Positions 2,414 to 14,956 of a stretch of 23,460 nt of DNA are shown in pieces. The notes beneath the pieces are model-generated. The model did not search any database, was not told where the DNA came from, and saw only the letters and a list, made by a program, of their open reading frames with translations. Each line of letters opens with the position of its first letter. The first letter of the stretch is position 1. This DNA is from a virus: the IMG/VR virus record IMGVR_UViG_3300042295_001137, positions 1-23,460 of that record; one strand, given 5' to 3'. The translations under genes were made by a program, and so were the position numbers.

Positions 2414-2878
2414 TTATCGGATGTTCAGTAGCTCGAAAGCTTTGATCACATCTGAAGTAGAAGGCACTGTCGACAACTTGTGGTCAAGGGCCTCTTCTTG
2501 GCCAAAGATGTTGATGGCCACCTCATTGTTTGACACCAACACCGTAGAGATTCCACGAGGCCAAATGTATGTGGAAGTAGTCTCAGTGGAAACCTTCAGA
2601 ATTGCGTTGTAAGCGTCCCTGGTTTCTTTCAGGCTGATTCCACCATCAAGGGTGACCAGACTATAGCGTTTGGTGATTGAGTGTTCCAGATCACTGATAC
2701 CGTCCTGTGTGATGGGCAGGGTTAGGCTATGGTTGGAACTGTACACATCGACTACCATCTTGCCTTTCTTATGGATGACAAGACGCTTGAGGTCGTCAAT
2801 GTTTATAGCTGCCGTGTAGTCTTCTTGGGAGCTCTTTAAGAGTATGAAGATCGGTTTCTGTTTCTTTGAAGTGTTCAT
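2414..2878 (-). CDS. Hypothetical protein, last gene of the modification operon
   Basis: 154-aa soluble protein of unknown function. The N-terminus is basic (MNTSKKQKPIFILLKSS) and the rest looks mixed alpha/beta with no motif I can name. It is the final gene of the minus-strand operon and stops 13 bp before the shared terminator. Its first ~28 codons overlap the upstream small membrane-protein frame (2796-3092) in another frame. A later in-frame Met41 (near 2758) would remove the overlap, but the residues before it read as normal protein, so the longer form is preferred. Coding status is likely; role unknown. Confidence 0.7.
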   Translation of the reverse strand: MNTSKKQKPIFILLKSSQEDYTAAINIDDLKRLVIHKKGKMVVDVYSSNHSLTLPITQDGISDLEHSITKRYSLVTLDGGISLKETRDAYNAILKVSTETTSTYIWPRGISTVLVSNNEVAINIFGQEEALDHKLSTVPSTSDVIKAFELLNIR

Positions 2879-3178: not shown

Positions 3179-3682
3179 TTAGTCTCCTAGCTCTATGACC
3201 TTGCAGTTTTTCTTCAAGGTCTCTTCTGAGAAGTTTGAGTGATCGATTGTCGTTCCGTCTCGCAGGTGGACAGTTGTCGACTTCTTGGTGAATTCCACAA
3301 TTGAGATTGCTCGAAGGTTCAAGCCGCTCATGGCAAATACTGGAGATGCCAGACGACGCTCCACCTTTTGGGTTGGACCAGTCTTGCTCGTCTGGGTCTG
3401 AGGGACCGGCGGTAGACCCTCAGTCTTGTCAATCCACGGGTGGCTCTTCTCGGCAACCTGGGGTTTTACGCCCATAAGCTTTGCAAAGAGTGGTGGAACA
3501 TACCCATGCTTCTGGGCCACCTTCAGTAGGGTGTTTTCAATGCCGGTGGAGTTAGGCGAGCACAGCTTCTGAGAAGCCAGTTCGGCTACGATAGCTGACT
3601 TGGTCAGCTTGGTTTCAAGGGCTTTGTCAACCTTATTAAGGGCAGACACCGCTTGGTCTTTGTCTAGGTCACTTAGTTTCAT
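3179..3682 (-). CDS. Hypothetical protein, 167 aa
   Basis: Unrecognised soluble protein. Residues 1-70 look helical and charged (MKLSDLDKDQAVSALNKVDK). A proline- and threonine-rich linker covers about 90-110 (LPPVPQTQTSKTGPTQK). The C-terminal 50 residues look like a small beta unit (AISIVEFTKKSTTVHLRDGT). This suggests two short domains joined by a flexible linker. It lies 9 bp after the 73-aa gene on the minus strand and appears to be cotranscribed with the carbamoyltransferase cassette. The start at 3682 is an ATG with at most a weak purine-rich leader (AGAAGAAG). No function can be assigned. Confidence 0.7.
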   Translation of the reverse strand: MKLSDLDKDQAVSALNKVDKALETKLTKSAIVAELASQKLCSPNSTGIENTLLKVAQKHGYVPPLFAKLMGVKPQVAEKSHPWIDKTEGLPPVPQTQTSKTGPTQKVERRLASPVFAMSGLNLRAISIVEFTKKSTTVHLRDGTTIDHSNFSEETLKKNCKVIELGD

Positions 3683-3691
3683 AGGCTTCTT

Positions 3692-3913
3692 CTACTTTAC
3701 TTGATTGGTACTGTAAACAGATTTTCTCCCCATCGTGACATTGGACGTGGCTGTGACGTCCTTATTGGTAAACTCCCATATCTCGCCAGATTCATCCAGA
3801 ATGACCGTGAAGAGCTTTTCAATCTCACTGCCATAGTCTGTCACAAGCCAAATACGACCACGACCCTTGGGTGTGTTCACCTGCAGTGACTGCTGGACTT
3901 CGAGCACGATCAT
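3692..3913 (-). CDS. Small conserved-looking phage protein, 73 aa
   Basis: Small beta-rich protein (VNTPKGRGRIWLVTDYGSE, FTVILDESGEIWEFTNKDV). The spacing of Gly, aromatic and acidic residues resembles small SH3-like phage proteins of unknown role found in large lytic phages; that resemblance is from memory. Its ATG overlaps the carbamoyltransferase stop in an ATGA, indicating translational coupling. No catalytic motif is visible. It could be an accessory to the cassette or simply a passenger in the operon. Confidence 0.72.
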   Translation of the reverse strand: MIVLEVQQSLQVNTPKGRGRIWLVTDYGSEIEKLFTVILDESGEIWEFTNKDVTATSNVTMGRKSVYSTNQVK

Positions 3914-5628
3914 TGAAAGTTTCCAATTACTAGAATTGGTGTTGTCAACCCCTGCTTTTTAGCTTCATCCACATTGAAAGCCATGTCATCAATGGCATGT
4001 TGGGCTGAGTACACTATGGGCACTCCATGCACATTGAGGGATGTGTTGATCAAGGCTGGATGGTCTGGATACAAAGCTCTGAGAATGTTTGAGATGGGCT
4101 GAATGTTATTTGCCTCAATCATTTGAGGACGTCCAGAATATCCGTACTTTCCACTAAATTTTGGGTATGGATGCATCACACCACGAAAACGATTGACATC
4201 CACAGTGGGATGGTAGTCCAACGTCAAGATCATGTAGTCAAGTGAGCCTGCCACACGGTTGATGTCATTGTTGCTGAAGAAAGCATCAGCGTATTGCTTC
4301 AGCATGACTGGTGCCATTGGCATCACCGTGTCACGGCCATTAAGTGAGTTGATTGTGGCAACATTCTCCTCAGTGGGCAACGCCAATGTTGTGGTATTGC
4401 AAAGTGCTCGTGGTCCAAACTCCATTGAACCTGTCACTGTGTTGACAATCTTGTTTTGCTTCAATTGAGAGACCACGAACGAAATGTAGCTCTGCTTATT
4501 GTCGAAGTAGAAGTGACCAGGTTTAAATTCAGCCCCATTGTCGCAGGGAACAAAGAGATCGCGATGTCCCCAAAGCAAACTGTCCAGACCCAAGACAGAA
4601 TTTTGGTGGTAGCGCATCAGTCCAACGGCTGCACCTTGATCACCGGCAAGTGGTGTCGCACAGAATTCACCCGGAATCTTGGACAAGATGTGGTTATTCA
4701 GCTTGACATTGTAATGGAGTCCGCCAGTCACAATGATGTTGTCGATGGAAAACTCCTCGATAACGTCAGCGTAGTAATTTTCAATGATACATTGTACGAA
4801 GTGCCCAATGATCCGGCGCAGGTCGCCATGGTTAAAGTCATTCTTATTCTCGCCAGTAATCTTATAAATGACTGAGTCAAACTGAGCCCACAGGTTAGCC
4901 TTGACTTGGACAAGACGATCCACATTGATGTAGGTCTTATTGGTACTCTGTTCACCCACATTAGCACGATACTTTTCAGCCCATCGAATGGCTTCTAATT
5001 GCAGATCCTGGATTTCCTTGTTTGTGAGCACCTCATCAACCCAAGTCTCATACCCAAGGAATTTGTACTCATCCTGATTTTCTTTCATGCCACAGTAGGA
5101 TGTGGCATACTGGTACAGCAAACCTAGTGAGTTTTCATAGCCATAAACTCGATGAACCAACTGCATGCTGTCTGAGTGTGGTTTCCACTTGTAGATCGAG
5201 AAGACCTCTTCTTTGTTTCCAAATCCATCAGCCACACAGATGTGAATTCCGTCCAAAGCAGTGCTGTGTGCCTCAAAGAAGGCTCGTGCAGCCCAAGCAT
5301 GGGCGTCATGGTGAGTAAACTGAGGTGTAAGTGTGACCAACTTCAGTCCTGTCTTATCACAGAGATCTCTGACATAGGCAGCATTCCAATGCTTGTCACT
5401 GAAACCATTTGTGGCAAAGTCAAAGTCATCAAACCAGTGTGAGACATACAGGTACTCAAACTCGCTGCCTTCAGTCCTCTTCAAGCATTCCTCAATGGCC
5501 AGCTGTGGAAATTGAGAGGAACTCTTGACTCGGTTAATTCGTTCCTCTTCGTAACCAGCAATGATTCGGTTGTGGCTATCTGTCAGTATTGCAGATGCAT
5601 TATGTCCTAGTGTGATCAGCAGGTTCAT
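3910..5628 (-). CDS. Carbamoyltransferase, NodU/CmcH/TobZ family; probable DNA-base carbamoylase
   Basis: 572 aa, full length for the family. These enzymes use carbamoyl phosphate and ATP to form carbamoyl-adenylate in a Kae1-like N-terminal domain, then transfer the carbamoyl group to a hydroxyl. The diagnostic blocks are intact: EEERINRVK with FP (27-41), the metal-binding HHDAHAWAA (106-114), VADGFG (132-137), GGLHYNVKLN (302-311), DQGAAVG (330-336), EFGPRALC (403-410) and ALINTSLNVHGVPIV (525-539). The C-terminal ~200 residues form the YrdC-like half. The start overlaps the stop of the TS-like gene in an ATGA, so the two are made together. Because the partner looks like a cytosine hydroxymethylase, the likely acceptor is 5-hydroxymethylcytosine, as DNA or nucleotide. 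An antibiotic- or sugar-type acceptor is less likely in this setting. Family assignment is certain; the substrate is inferred. Confidence 0.95.
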   Translation of the reverse strand: MNLLITLGHNASAILTDSHNRIIAGYEEERINRVKSSSQFPQLAIEECLKRTEGSEFEYLYVSHWFDDFDFATNGFSDKHWNAAYVRDLCDKTGLKLVTLTPQFTHHDAHAWAARAFFEAHSTALDGIHICVADGFGNKEEVFSIYKWKPHSDSMQLVHRVYGYENSLGLLYQYATSYCGMKENQDEYKFLGYETWVDEVLTNKEIQDLQLEAIRWAEKYRANVGEQSTNKTYINVDRLVQVKANLWAQFDSVIYKITGENKNDFNHGDLRRIIGHFVQCIIENYYADVIEEFSIDNIIVTGGLHYNVKLNNHILSKIPGEFCATPLAGDQGAAVGLMRYHQNSVLGLDSLLWGHRDLFVPCDNGAEFKPGHFYFDNKQSYISFVVSQLKQNKIVNTVTGSMEFGPRALCNTTTLALPTEENVATINSLNGRDTVMPMAPVMLKQYADAFFSNNDINRVAGSLDYMILTLDYHPTVDVNRFRGVMHPYPKFSGKYGYSGRPQMIEANNIQPISNILRALYPDHPALINTSLNVHGVPIVYSAQHAIDDMAFNVDEAKKQGLTTPILVIGNFQ

Positions 5629-6410
5629 GACTTAAAGAATTTCAGATCTTGCAGAAGGTGGGAGGTAAGTTCAAAATTTGAAGGTTCAAGTGCATCGTCG
5701 TCAAAGAAGTGTCTTAGACGAAGTATGTCATTAAGTTCCATGGGATGAAATCGTGGCCAGTCAATCAGCGTGACATGCTCCATGGTAAGATTTTCTTCTT
5801 TGACATGGAGTGAACCCACGTTGTGGTAATAGGTTCCGATGGCCACGTTTAGAAGTGAGGCCATGATTTCTTGTAGTAGTGTAAAGAATACAACATCCGT
5901 TCTAAACCCAAAGTGCAACTCATTAGATCTCATGGTTGTGATAAGATGCAACTGGCCATCTCGAACAAGAAACTGTAGTGATGTGGTACAGATGTGGTCA
6001 TTGGTTGCTGACATGGCCACTTCACGTCGGTTGAACATGATAACGGCTCTACGAGATTCAGGGTCTTTCCTAAGAAGCTTAAAGCAGTGATGAAACTGTC
6101 TCTCTTCCCAAACATACTGGCCATAGTTTGAATTGACGTCACCCTTTTGGGCTCTTTCCCAAGCCTGAGGGTAGTACTTCTTAAGTTCAGTATTTTGGCT
6201 GCCCCATGCATACCAAGCCCATTGTATGGCCATATAAGGCACAAAAGAGATAGAGTCACTTCGGACGGTGGCCACCCTTTGGCACGGTTTGTGGATCTCT
6301 ACTCCAACGTTGATGTGCTCTAGCCAACCATTTGTTTGAACCTTTTTGTCACCCAACTTATGGTTGAGTAAGACGAATGCTTCTGGGACATTTGTTGCTT
6401 GAATAATCAT
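5625..6410 (-). CDS. Thymidylate-synthase-fold dCMP hydroxymethylase (predicted)
   Basis: 261-aa member of the thymidylate synthase superfamily. Catalytic Cys141 lies in DHICTTSLQF; the phosphate-binding arginines are R120/R121 (SRR) and R161 in MRSNELHFGF. Aligning without gaps from the catalytic Cys, E. coli TS N177, which selects uracil, is matched by Asp172. Asp here is the signature of the dCMP/CMP-specific enzymes such as T4 gp42, so the product is predicted to be 5-hydroxymethyl-dCMP (or 5-methyl-dCMP), made with methylene-tetrahydrofolate. Two changes are odd: the usual catalytic Glu (E58) is Gln63 in QWAWYAWG, and the usual H-x-Y pair (H207/Y209) is H202/K204. Its start overlaps the kinase stop and its stop overlaps the carbamoyltransferase start. 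A plain thymidylate synthase is disfavoured by Asp172. Confidence 0.88.
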   Translation of the reverse strand: MIIQATNVPEAFVLLNHKLGDKKVQTNGWLEHINVGVEIHKPCQRVATVRSDSISFVPYMAIQWAWYAWGSQNTELKKYYPQAWERAQKGDVNSNYGQYVWEERQFHHCFKLLRKDPESRRAVIMFNRREVAMSATNDHICTTSLQFLVRDGQLHLITTMRSNELHFGFRTDVVFFTLLQEIMASLLNVAIGTYYHNVGSLHVKEENLTMEHVTLIDWPRFHPMELNDILRLRHFFDDDALEPSNFELTSHLLQDLKFFKS

Positions 6411-7021
6411 GCGATCTCTGACAAGGCTTCCTCACAGGCATTGAGGATCTGGTCTTCTTCCTTGCGCACGTCTACCTTAGTCAACTTGGACAATCCTGTA
6501 AACAAACCAATGTTTAAAATTTCAATGAGCTGGTGCTCAATGGTCTGGGTCACGATCAAGTCTGTCGGCCGCATGGGGTCTTTGACCGTGATAGGCAGAG
6601 GCTGCATCATGAAAACCATGTCATATCTCTTCCTGGCCTTGGCTGTCTCTGTGATGGTCTTGACAAACTTTGCGTACTCTACCTTCTGGTTGTCGGCCAG
6701 GTCCTTGATATCAATGTAGAAGGTGGTGTAGAAGAGTGAGTCGGCCAAACTTCTGTCCACTAGGATCAGTTGGCCTTTTTTCGTGGCGAGTGCATCATCT
6801 TCCTGCTTGATCTTCTCCATGACCACTCTCTGTTGTAACTTGAAGTAATTCTGTGTGGAGTTTCTAACCACATCGATTGATGTGATCTTGTCCCTTATGC
6901 ACTCACCCACGATGTGGACCCTGCCACCAAATTTGGCTTTGATCTTGTGCATGAGTGTGGTCTTTCCAGCATTACACGGACCTGAAAAGGCAAAAGTAAC
7001 ATTCATACTCATCAAGAACAT
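6407..7021 (-). CDS. P-loop NTPase/kinase, NadR/AAA_28-like; possible modified-nucleotide kinase
   Basis: 204 aa with Walker A GPCNAGKT at 14-21, a GECIRD segment after the first helix (39-44) and a Walker-B/lid-like LVDRSLADS at 87-95. The layout resembles the AAA_28/NadR-type small-molecule kinases. It heads the operon and overlaps the hydroxymethylase in an ATGA. T4 needs a dNMP kinase (gp1) to phosphorylate hydroxymethyl-dCMP, so a similar job here is attractive but is inference from position. Nicotinamide-nucleoside salvage is another option for this family. The start is uncertain: Met1, Met4 or Met6 (MFLMSMNV). Its ATG is only 24 bp from the divergent ATG at 7046. Confidence 0.8.
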   Translation of the reverse strand: MFLMSMNVTFAFSGPCNAGKTTLMHKIKAKFGGRVHIVGECIRDKITSIDVVRNSTQNYFKLQQRVVMEKIKQEDDALATKKGQLILVDRSLADSLFYTTFYIDIKDLADNQKVEYAKFVKTITETAKARKRYDMVFMMQPLPITVKDPMRPTDLIVTQTIEHQLIEILNIGLFTGLSKLTKVDVRKEEDQILNACEEALSEIA

Positions 7022-13361: not shown

Positions 13362-14384
13362 ATGAATGGCCAGGCTATCATATCAGAAGTCAATGCACTT
13401 TTCTCGGTGGTTCCCGATAGAACCAATCGGGAAGAGCTGATCATTATCTGCCCTGAGCCAAATTGTGGTGACAAATCTGGCAATAGGTCGGTAAATATCA
13501 AGAGTGGCAAGACCAACTGTTGGCGTTGTAACAAGGGCGGAGACTTTGTTCGTTGGGCTAAATCTCTGGGATATGCCATTGAAGAAGGTGAAACTCAAGC
13601 TGTTAGTATTGATTCACTTGAGAGTCTGTCTGACGAGTTAGACAAAGTTGACAGGGTCTTTATGCCTTCGTCTGTGAGTGCCAGTTTGCCCCGTGGGTTT
13701 ATATCTATATGTCAAGAGCCTGATTCAGCCTATGCGATGCTTATTGCCAAGATGGCCAGGCGTAAAAAACTTTCCATTGAGGTGTTCTCCGAAGCGGGTG
13801 TGGGCTTTACTCGTGACTCTGAGCTTTGGGAACCGTACGCAATTTTTCCAGTCTATGAGTGGGGTAAAACAGTCTACTTTCAGGGCAGAACGTACGTGGA
13901 CATTCCGGGTGAATCTACAAAGAGATTTCCATCTAAGCGTGAAGTCAAGTTTGGATCAGCCTGTTGGGTCTACAATTTAGATGAGGTTAGAGAAACCCGG
14001 GCTTCCACGGTGGTCGTTGTTGAGTCCATACTCAATGTGATGTCCTTACGACAAGAGTTTGCTCGTCGTGGTATCACCGGTGTTGTGCCTGTGGCCGTGT
14101 TTAAACATTCAATTTCCTCCATGCAAGAGAGGAAGATCATGGCCATTCGTTCCGTCAAAGAAGTCTGTGTGATGTATGATGCTGATGCCACTCAGTCAGC
14201 TTTTAAGGAGTCACGCAAGTTCATGAACAGATGTCGTTTTTCAGTCGCCCACATACCTCAGACTCCAGAGGGAAGGACTCAGGACGCAAATGACAACGTT
14301 GAATTTGCTGTGGATCAATTTCTGAATCGCCAGTTCTATGACACAGCTGTTTCTCAACTAGAGATTGCACTACAAAATCTATGA
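13362..14384 (+). CDS. DNA primase, zinc-ribbon plus Toprim, no helicase domain
   Basis: 340 aa. The N-terminal zinc-binding unit has Cys30, Cys35, Cys53 and Cys56 (CPEPNCGDKSG, TNCWRCNKGG) of the CHC2/T7 type, recognising the priming trinucleotide. The Toprim catalytic site has Glu221 in VVVVESILNVMSL and the Asp pair D273/D275 in VMYDADA. It makes RNA primers for lagging-strand synthesis. T7-type primases are fused to a helicase; this one ends after the Toprim part, so the helicase is encoded elsewhere. A longer frame from 13194 is discarded because it would run through the 64-aa gene and add an unrelated N-terminus before the zinc unit. It overlaps the co-chaperonin start in an ATGA. Confidence 0.9.
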   Translation: MNGQAIISEVNALFSVVPDRTNREELIIICPEPNCGDKSGNRSVNIKSGKTNCWRCNKGGDFVRWAKSLGYAIEEGETQAVSIDSLESLSDELDKVDRVFMPSSVSASLPRGFISICQEPDSAYAMLIAKMARRKKLSIEVFSEAGVGFTRDSELWEPYAIFPVYEWGKTVYFQGRTYVDIPGESTKRFPSKREVKFGSACWVYNLDEVRETRASTVVVVESILNVMSLRQEFARRGITGVVPVAVFKHSISSMQERKIMAIRSVKEVCVMYDADATQSAFKESRKFMNRCRFSVAHIPQTPEGRTQDANDNVEFAVDQFLNRQFYDTAVSQLEIALQNL

Positions 14385-14956
14385 CCACAATCAAACCCAT
14401 TGGCGAACGTATTGCCATCATCAATACTGAAGAGGCCTACGAAGGAAAGCTTGCCCTTCCAGAAAGCCGTTCCAAGACTCATGTCCACGGAAAGTGTGTG
14501 GCGGTGGGTTCTGGTAAGTATCCAGACGGCACTGTCAAGGAGATCTATGCCAAGGTTGGTGAGGTCTACATCTATCAGATTGATGGCTCCCAGCAAGTCA
14601 ATGCGTCATTTAAGATCGACAATGAACTGGTCTTGCTGTTGCATCAGGCTGACATGATCTGTCGTCTAAACGATAAGACCGTCACGTTTGATTCTATCGA
14701 TATGATGGGTCACTGGCTTCTTGTTGAACCCAGCTTTAAGTCTGAGAGCACCATCATCATTCCTGATACTTCCAAAGATTCTCAGCATGAGCTTCATCAT
14801 TTCAAGTTGGCTAAGAAAGGTTCACAAGCAGATATCGAAGCTAACATCGGCGATGAGATTTTCCCTGCTCGTGGCCGTCTAACACCCCTGAACATTGACG
14901 GCAAGACGTACTGCTTCATCCAGGACAACTTTATCTATGGTCACCTTCAGAGTTGA
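14381..14956 (+). CDS. Tandem GroES-like (Cpn10) co-chaperonin
   Basis: 191 aa containing two Cpn10-like domains. Domain 1 (1-95): IKPIGERIAIIN, a short mobile-loop region EEAYEGKLALPES, GKCVAVGSGKYPDGTVKE, KVGEVYIYQ and FKIDNELVLLL, all matching the GroES order. Domain 2 (107-190): GHWLLVEPSFKSESTIIIP, ANIGDEIFPARG, YCFIQDNFIYGHL. Each loop region keeps a hydrophobic tripeptide (LAL, III) where GroES has IVL, the contact to GroEL. T4 gp31 is a single-domain phage co-chaperonin used with host GroEL to fold the capsid protein; a double-domain form recalls chloroplast Cpn20. No GroEL is present in the window, so host GroEL would be the partner. It is coupled to the primase gene and followed by a terminator. 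Confidence 0.85.
   Translation: MTTIKPIGERIAIINTEEAYEGKLALPESRSKTHVHGKCVAVGSGKYPDGTVKEIYAKVGEVYIYQIDGSQQVNASFKIDNELVLLLHQADMICRLNDKTVTFDSIDMMGHWLLVEPSFKSESTIIIPDTSKDSQHELHHFKLAKKGSQADIEANIGDEIFPARGRLTPLNIDGKTYCFIQDNFIYGHLQS

Follow-up and report, generated by a model that had tools for sequence, protein, structure and literature searches.

The DNA analysed here is the complete IMG/VR record IMGVR_UViG_3300042295_001137 (23,460 bases, hereafter the window), which contains, flanked by tail and other structural genes, a three-gene cassette on the minus strand. In the order of reading, the cassette encodes a P-loop nucleotide kinase of 204 aa (6407..7021), a hydroxymethylase-like enzyme of 261 aa with the thymidylate synthase (TS) fold and a cytosine-type residue (5625..6410), and a carbamoyltransferase (CT) of 572 aa (3910..5628) that appears to belong to the type acting on 5-hydroxymethylcytosine (5hmC). 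The window is probably a genome fragment, because its relatives reach well past its ends. The three genes are consecutive, and both the kinase/TS junction (6407-6410) and the TS/CT junction (5625-5628) read ATGA, as had been stated in the initial annotation of this DNA. The additional statement that the genes are translated in lockstep over-reads these overlaps: four-base overlaps were counted at 9 of the 21 same-strand neighbour pairs in a hand-picked gene list of the window, and the ATGA overlap was rejected as the sign of a special unit. With such overlaps so frequent across the genome, the evidence for coupled function comes from the conserved order of the genes and not from the overlaps as such. 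Among the related CT loci that were fetched and compared with the window (designated by L-numbers such as L002 or L077), the order kinase-TS-CT is kept in L002, L003 and L005, with CT identities of 78-80%, and more distantly in L017 and L077, with a CT identity of 47%. The kinase, which had been assigned to the same unit, is real and recurs in related loci.

The CT is a full-length member of its superfamily, as had been proposed, with PF02543 and PF16861 matched above cut-off across the whole protein and phrog_1601 at 9e-62. Its motifs are THHDAHA at residue 105, VADGFGN at 132, TGGLHYNV at 301, PLAGDQG at 326, GSMEFGPRALCNTTTLA at 400, GRDTVMPMAPV at 431, and LINTSLNVHGVPI at 526. The reference for its activity is an enzyme from a sewage phage contig that converts 5hmC to 5-carbamoyloxymethylcytosine, the sequence of which is given in the Methods of the original study (Yang et al., eLife 2021; PMC8670742); the initial annotation had pointed to such a precedent from environmental phage sequences, and the precedent exists. 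Liquid chromatography-mass spectrometry (LC-MS) proved that this enzyme forms the carbamoylated nucleoside 5cmdC both from DNA containing 5-hydroxymethyldeoxycytidine (5hmdC) and from 5hmdCTP, and thus acts at both the DNA and the nucleotide level; single-stranded 5hmdC DNA was preferred and 5hmdUTP was not a substrate (PMC8670742). The window CT is 35% identical to this enzyme over 570 aligned columns, essentially the full length. In a tree of 76 CTs calculated by quick search, the window CT, the enzyme of Yang et al. and 63 other phage or phage-like CTs formed a clade of 65 members, set off by a branch of 1.49 with an SH-aLRT support of 100; across that branch lie the CTs of Sinorhizobium (rhizobial), Streptomyces, Burkholderia, haloarchaea, and cyano- and pelagiphages. 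The phylogeny proposed for the 572-aa protein thus groups it with the proven 5hmC enzyme and not with the nodulation and antibiotic CTs.

The residues most associated with modified DNA in the study of 2021 correspond to W408, G421 and R423 of TobZ (PMC8670742). At these positions the window CT has T/C/T, versus W/G/R in other CTs, the TobZ equivalence having been placed by the motif, its 13/2 spacing and PDB alignments of related CTs rather than by a direct TobZ alignment. The G421 position is occupied by C in 53 of the 65 phage-clade CTs and by G in 10 of the 11 outgroup CTs, and the R423 position by T in 63/65 and by R in 11/11, respectively. When the CT alignment was used to scan 84,980 prokaryote species, only three clade members were found, all of them in contigs of metagenome-assembled genomes (MAGs); some members can escape such a scan, which works from short conserved patterns.

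The neighbourhoods of the clade members, which were read by profile searches over all fetched loci, point in the same direction. A TS-fold gene lies within 8 kb of the CT in 73 of the 78 clade loci, the remaining five being truncated at contig ends, and in every readable case the CT-adjacent TS-fold proteins combine the Cys nucleophile with an Asp at the position of E. coli residue 177. The co-occurrence of CT and TS-fold genes described by Yang et al. is thereby extended to many more phages. By its clade, its signature residues and its gene neighbourhood, carbamoylation of 5hmC by the window CT is strongly supported. It has in common with NodU and TobZ its superfamily and motifs, so that it might act on a sugar or another small molecule with the TS-fold gene as an incidental neighbour; in view of the separate, fully supported clade, the switched diagnostic residues and the TS-fold gene in 73/78 loci, this is very improbable.

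The TS-fold protein matches PF00303 well above cut-off. Its best sequence matches in the PDB are the CMP hydroxymethylase MilA (1e-23) and the dCMP hydroxymethylase of T4 (T4 dCH, gp42; 5e-20), both ahead of any thymidylate synthase, and its AF2 model (pLDDT 90) is closest to MilA (Z 28), followed by 9iqc (Z 23), T4 dCH (Z 20) and ordinary TS (about Z 20). MilA (PDB 5b6d, 5jnh), an enzyme of an antibiotic pathway, is therefore its nearest solved relative by both sequence and model. The hydroxymethylation signature is known as an Asp three residues ahead of the Cys, plus Ser-x-Tyr (PMC6400193). The window protein keeps Ser94, Tyr96, Asp138, Cys141 and Asp172, which correspond to Ser94, Tyr96, Asp145, Cys148 and Asp179 of T4 gp42; Cys141 is the nucleophile, and Asp172 is the cytosine-reading residue, as had been annotated. 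Asp172 alone is no proof of hydroxymethylation, because the TS-fold dCMP enzyme of phage RB69 is a dCMP hydroxylase. RB69p048 is nearly identical to 9iqc and 9iqu, TS-fold dCMP hydroxylases solved with FAD, and the DNA of Mosigvirus derives from 5-hydroxy-dC, which raises the alternative that the window protein is a flavin-type dCMP 5-hydroxylase like RB69/AfhB and that the CT would carbamoylate 5-hydroxy-dC. The window protein is nearer in sequence to MilA and T4 dCH than to 9iqu (4e-7), its model is nearer to MilA than to 9iqc, though T4 dCH reaches only Z 20, and the proven CT uses a hydroxymethyl group; a flavin-type hydroxylase is accordingly a highly unlikely identity. The loss of the catalytic Glu, discussed below, was also considered as a hallmark of the RB69-type 5-hydroxy-dCMP synthase, and this idea was dropped: in a pairwise alignment with L012, RB69p048 aligns best with Glu at position 60 and most likely keeps it, so the variant of the window is not shared.

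The kinase matches AAA_28 at 1.7e-14, well above cut-off, dNK at 1.2e-5, just under cut-off, and a phrog annotated as thymidylate kinase at 8e-14; a P-loop and a DRS motif are present, and the fold is of the dNK/TMPK/NadR type. Its AF2 model (pLDDT 86) matched the NadR kinase domain, AbmG and human deoxycytidine kinase (dCK) at Z 15-16 with about 12-15% identity, and in Foldseek dCK, Drosophila dNK and thymidylate kinases ranked high. It is 85-87% identical to its counterparts beside the same genes in L002 and L005. Orthology to T4 gp1 was rejected, since only 25 P-loop columns align (probability 2.9%) and PF21448 was not among the Pfam matches; the gp1-type DNMK family was detected in 1 of 22 related records and not in the other 21. 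A relationship to the hydroxymethyluracil DNA kinase of phage M6 found no clear support, the alignment to M6 gp54, which we take to be the M6 5-hmdU DNA kinase, being confined to 21 P-loop columns. A genome search of M6, ViI, phiW-14 and T4 gave no match and zero first-look candidates, and is hence uninformative. Since the annotation of T4 gp1 has it convert HMdCMP, the economical reading is that the cassette kinase would phosphorylate hydroxymethyl-dCMP (hm-dCMP); carbamoylated dCMP may be an alternative substrate.

Of the 61 tree loci that could be scored, 21 contain a member of the kinase family, which also stands beside CT and TS genes in cultured Bacteroides phages. Its association with TS-fold proteins that lack the catalytic Glu (Glu-less) was tried as independent evidence (2x2 table 18/3/7/33) and rejected: with only 2 kinase changes required on the tree, the association is largely a matter of shared ancestry and a sign test is without power. 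In two phages (L008:10140-11408 and L054:6670-7941) the cassette kinase carries a UDG-superfamily domain (PF03167) fused to its C-terminus, while on a Patescibacteria MAG contig (L050:6789-8447) the UDG domain belongs to a distinct protein of 553 aa that is encoded near the CT and kinase genes. A 153-aa open reading frame (ORF) after the CT in L013 (8600-9058; phrog_761, 1.8e-8) resembles a degenerate or very divergent kinase.

Because of the CT clade, the diagnostic residues and the neighbouring TS-fold genes with the cytosine-type Asp, 5-carbamoyloxymethyl-dC, or a derivative of it, is the best prediction for the product. The substrates of all three enzymes and the order of the steps are those that we infer as follows. 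The TS-fold enzyme, a Glu-to-Gln variant, would put a hydroxymethyl group on C5 of dCMP; the kinase would phosphorylate hm-dCMP, as gp1 does in T4, and open the route to the triphosphate; the CT, with ATP and carbamoyl phosphate, would turn the 5-hydroxymethyl into a 5-carbamoyloxymethyl group on the nucleotide or on single-stranded DNA, a step demonstrated for the 35%-identical clade member and predicted for the window CT; and the modified base would guard the genome against restriction. That the cassette makes carbamoylated cytosine for the phage DNA by this complete route, restriction protection included, is favoured here, by somewhat better than even chances. The initial annotation had predicted 5-carbamoyloxymethylcytosine as well; carbamoylation of 5hmC stands by clade, residues and neighbourhood, but the preceding hydroxymethylase step is less secure.

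The weakness lies in the residue at the position of the catalytic Glu of the family (E. coli Glu58, T4 Glu60), which in the window protein is Gln63. This Glu is conserved in all members of the thymidylate synthases, CMP hydroxymethylases and dCMP hydroxymethylases, and serves in the water-mediated activation of methylenetetrahydrofolate (methylene-THF) (PMC6400193). Changes are also seen on the pterin side, at Asp171, Tyr218 and Arg220, with Glu164 in place of Asp171 and Lys204 in place of Tyr218; His202 is a further residue read here. Assignment as a dCMP hydroxymethylase, as originally made, agrees with the signature residues and Asp172 but overlooked this substitution. Within the TS clade of the window, Gln is found in all six members that could be read (the window, L002, L003, L005, L017 and L077); in two further CT-linked TS clades the Glu60 position is taken by Ile/Leu/Met or by Lys. 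In the TS tree the three Glu-less groups stand apart, each with a support of 99-100, and all three adjoin CTs from the window's part of the CT tree. In L037 (7989-10885), where CT, kinase and TS are consecutive, the TS retains Glu60 and branches as the sister of the Glu-less class b; this arrangement possibly pictures the ancestral state. The class c paralogues (L007-L016, L018, L020, L033, L039, L054 and L056), with Lys at the Glu60 position, are very divergent and mostly without Ser169, His216 and Tyr218; they adjoin the CT or sit close downstream, and they must bind sugar and phosphate differently from normal hydroxymethylases.

The company of the Glu-less proteins also weighs against a simple hydroxymethylase. 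Glu-less TS genes occur in 25 tree loci, most of which, where the flanks are long enough, hold a normal Glu60 hydroxymethylase nearby, and the 230-kb record that contains L077 has three TS-fold genes, which encode an ordinary TS, a separate Glu60 hydroxymethylase and, next to the CT, the Gln60 protein. It is therefore possible, though clearly less probable than the route above, that the CT carbamoylates 5hmC while the TS-fold protein is an accessory paralogue that binds the modified nucleotide, acts on it or enters into mixed dimers, the normal Glu60 hydroxymethylase being encoded outside the sequenced part. Overlapping contigs of the window's own phage type span at least 99 kb. In these approximately 99 kb the TS-fold genes found were those of an ordinary Asn177 TS and of the Gln60 protein, and a Glu60 hydroxymethylase was not found; the window protein retains the hydroxylation signature residues and the Cys. 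Neither DNA polymerase A/B nor Terminase_6N was detected in this map, which may therefore be incomplete and does not prove that a second hydroxymethylase is absent. With the catalytic Glu gone, and with Glu-less paralogues accompanied in related phages by a normal hydroxymethylase of separate origin in the genome, the identification of the window protein as simply a dCMP hydroxymethylase is less secure, and hm-dCMP production by the Gln63 protein is the main uncertainty of the scheme.

The loss of Glu60, the activator of methylene-THF, in three separately supported CT-linked clades that keep Cys148, Asp179 and Tyr96 would also fit enzymes that no longer use methylene-folate. In such enzymes the Cys would attack C6 of an activated 5-CH2-X-dCMP (X being carbamate or phosphate), X would be expelled to leave an exocyclic methylene, and another nucleophile would then add; 5-carbamoyloxymethyl-dC would be a stage on the way to a larger hypermodification, to which the kinase would contribute a second activation or a salvage reaction. 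A folate-free TS-fold enzyme acting on dCMP has a precedent in 9iqc, titled a riboflavin-dependent monooxygenase with dCMP and FAD, and fusions to a UDG-superfamily domain occur among the kinases of the set. However, there is no known product, nucleophile or additional transferase, a UDG-family gene was not found in the relatives of the window, Asp138, the T4 equivalent of which activates water for hydroxymethylation, is kept, and the change from Glu to Gln may merely slow the enzyme; for the window this mechanism is considered unlikely. In its general form, namely that CT phages have repeatedly turned a duplicated dCMP hydroxymethylase into a folate-independent enzyme that works with the CT and the kinase and uses carbamate or phosphate as a leaving group for hypermodification beyond 5-carbamoyloxymethyl-dC, the proposal is doubtful, although it is consistent with the residues lost and kept and with the TS-fold dCMP hydroxylase solved with FAD.

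The predicted hydroxymethylation route resembles that of T4, in which gp42, gp1 and a DNA-level transferase make hm-dCMP, phosphorylate it and decorate the hydroxyl. In contrast to T4, the group added in the window would be carbamoyl instead of glucose, the kinase is not detectably related to gp1 beyond the P-loop, and relative to gp42 Glu60 is replaced by Gln and Asp171 by Glu, while Tyr218 and Arg220 are lost. MilA also differs from the window protein in retaining the Glu (Glu68). With the system of Yang et al. the window has in common the full-length homology, the CT clade, C and T in place of G421 and R423, and a nearby TS-fold gene; the word kinase is absent from that paper (PMC8670742), whereas the window operon has a kinase and a Gln60 TS-fold partner, and the enzyme of Yang et al. 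groups in the CT tree with loci whose TS-fold genes have Glu. Among cultured phages, the Bacteroides phages BF503P1/P2/P4, BF486P2/P3 and BF494P1 have consecutive genes for a CT, a homologous kinase and a Glu-less TS-fold protein, and also carry a separate Glu60 hydroxymethylase (BF503P2 being the one examined in detail); unlike the window, their order is CT-kinase-TS, their Glu-less TS is of another class (Leu60), and the kinase is only about 30% identical. Xanthomonas phage Xp15 and the Acinetobacter phages Effie, MD-2021a and HHU4 carry CTs of the same clade with 36-38% identity; in Xp15, Effie and MD-2021a a Glu60 hydroxymethylase lies nearby, and in contrast to the window neither such a kinase nor a Glu-less TS was detected in Xp15, in Effie or at the MD-2021a locus.

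Downstream of the CT, a third ATGA (3910-3913) joins it to an ORF of 73 aa (3692..3913, minus strand), not mentioned in the initial annotation, which overlaps the CT stop and is matched in L002 and L005 by an ORF of similar length in the corresponding position; no family match was found for it in Pfam or phrog searches. An ORF of 167 aa (3179..3682, minus strand) starts 9 bp past it, is found with the same size and place in L005, and likely belongs to the same transcription unit. The final minus-strand ORF ahead of the tail genes encodes 154 aa (2414..2878), with an ORF of similar length at the equivalent place in L002 and L005. No function was assigned to these three ORFs. Elsewhere in the window, a Cpn10/GroES-like protein of 191 aa (14381-14956), about twice the usual length and with two matched stretches, is possibly a tandem co-chaperonin. 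Other CT loci have additional genes of their own. In L007 (4162-9844) an ATP-grasp protein, the C-terminal part of which is phosphoheptose-isomerase/polynucleotide-kinase-like, and two nucleotide-sugar epimerases lie between the TS-fold genes. In Acinetobacter phage Effie (L046:8646-9317) a match to phosphoribosyl-ATP pyrophosphohydrolase follows the CT; this domain was among the co-occurring domains in the study of 2021 (PMC8670742).

The chemistry of cytosine carbamoylation and the pairing of CT and TS genes are already published, the DNA modification having been first described in 2021, and 5-carbamoyloxymethylcytosine is known from a single in vitro enzyme study (PMC8670742). In the open-licence PMC literature, no report was found of the kinase-containing form with a Glu-less TS partner, nor of 5-carbamoyloxymethylcytosine in the DNA of a cultured phage. 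The CT clade is widespread in phages, and cultured carriers can now be named. It splits into a simple form, composed of the CT and a normal hydroxymethylase, and a complex form, in which the CT is accompanied by the kinase and/or a Glu-less TS paralogue. The complex form raises a testable question, namely what role is played by a TS-fold enzyme that has cytosine recognition and the nucleophile but is without the folate-activating Glu.

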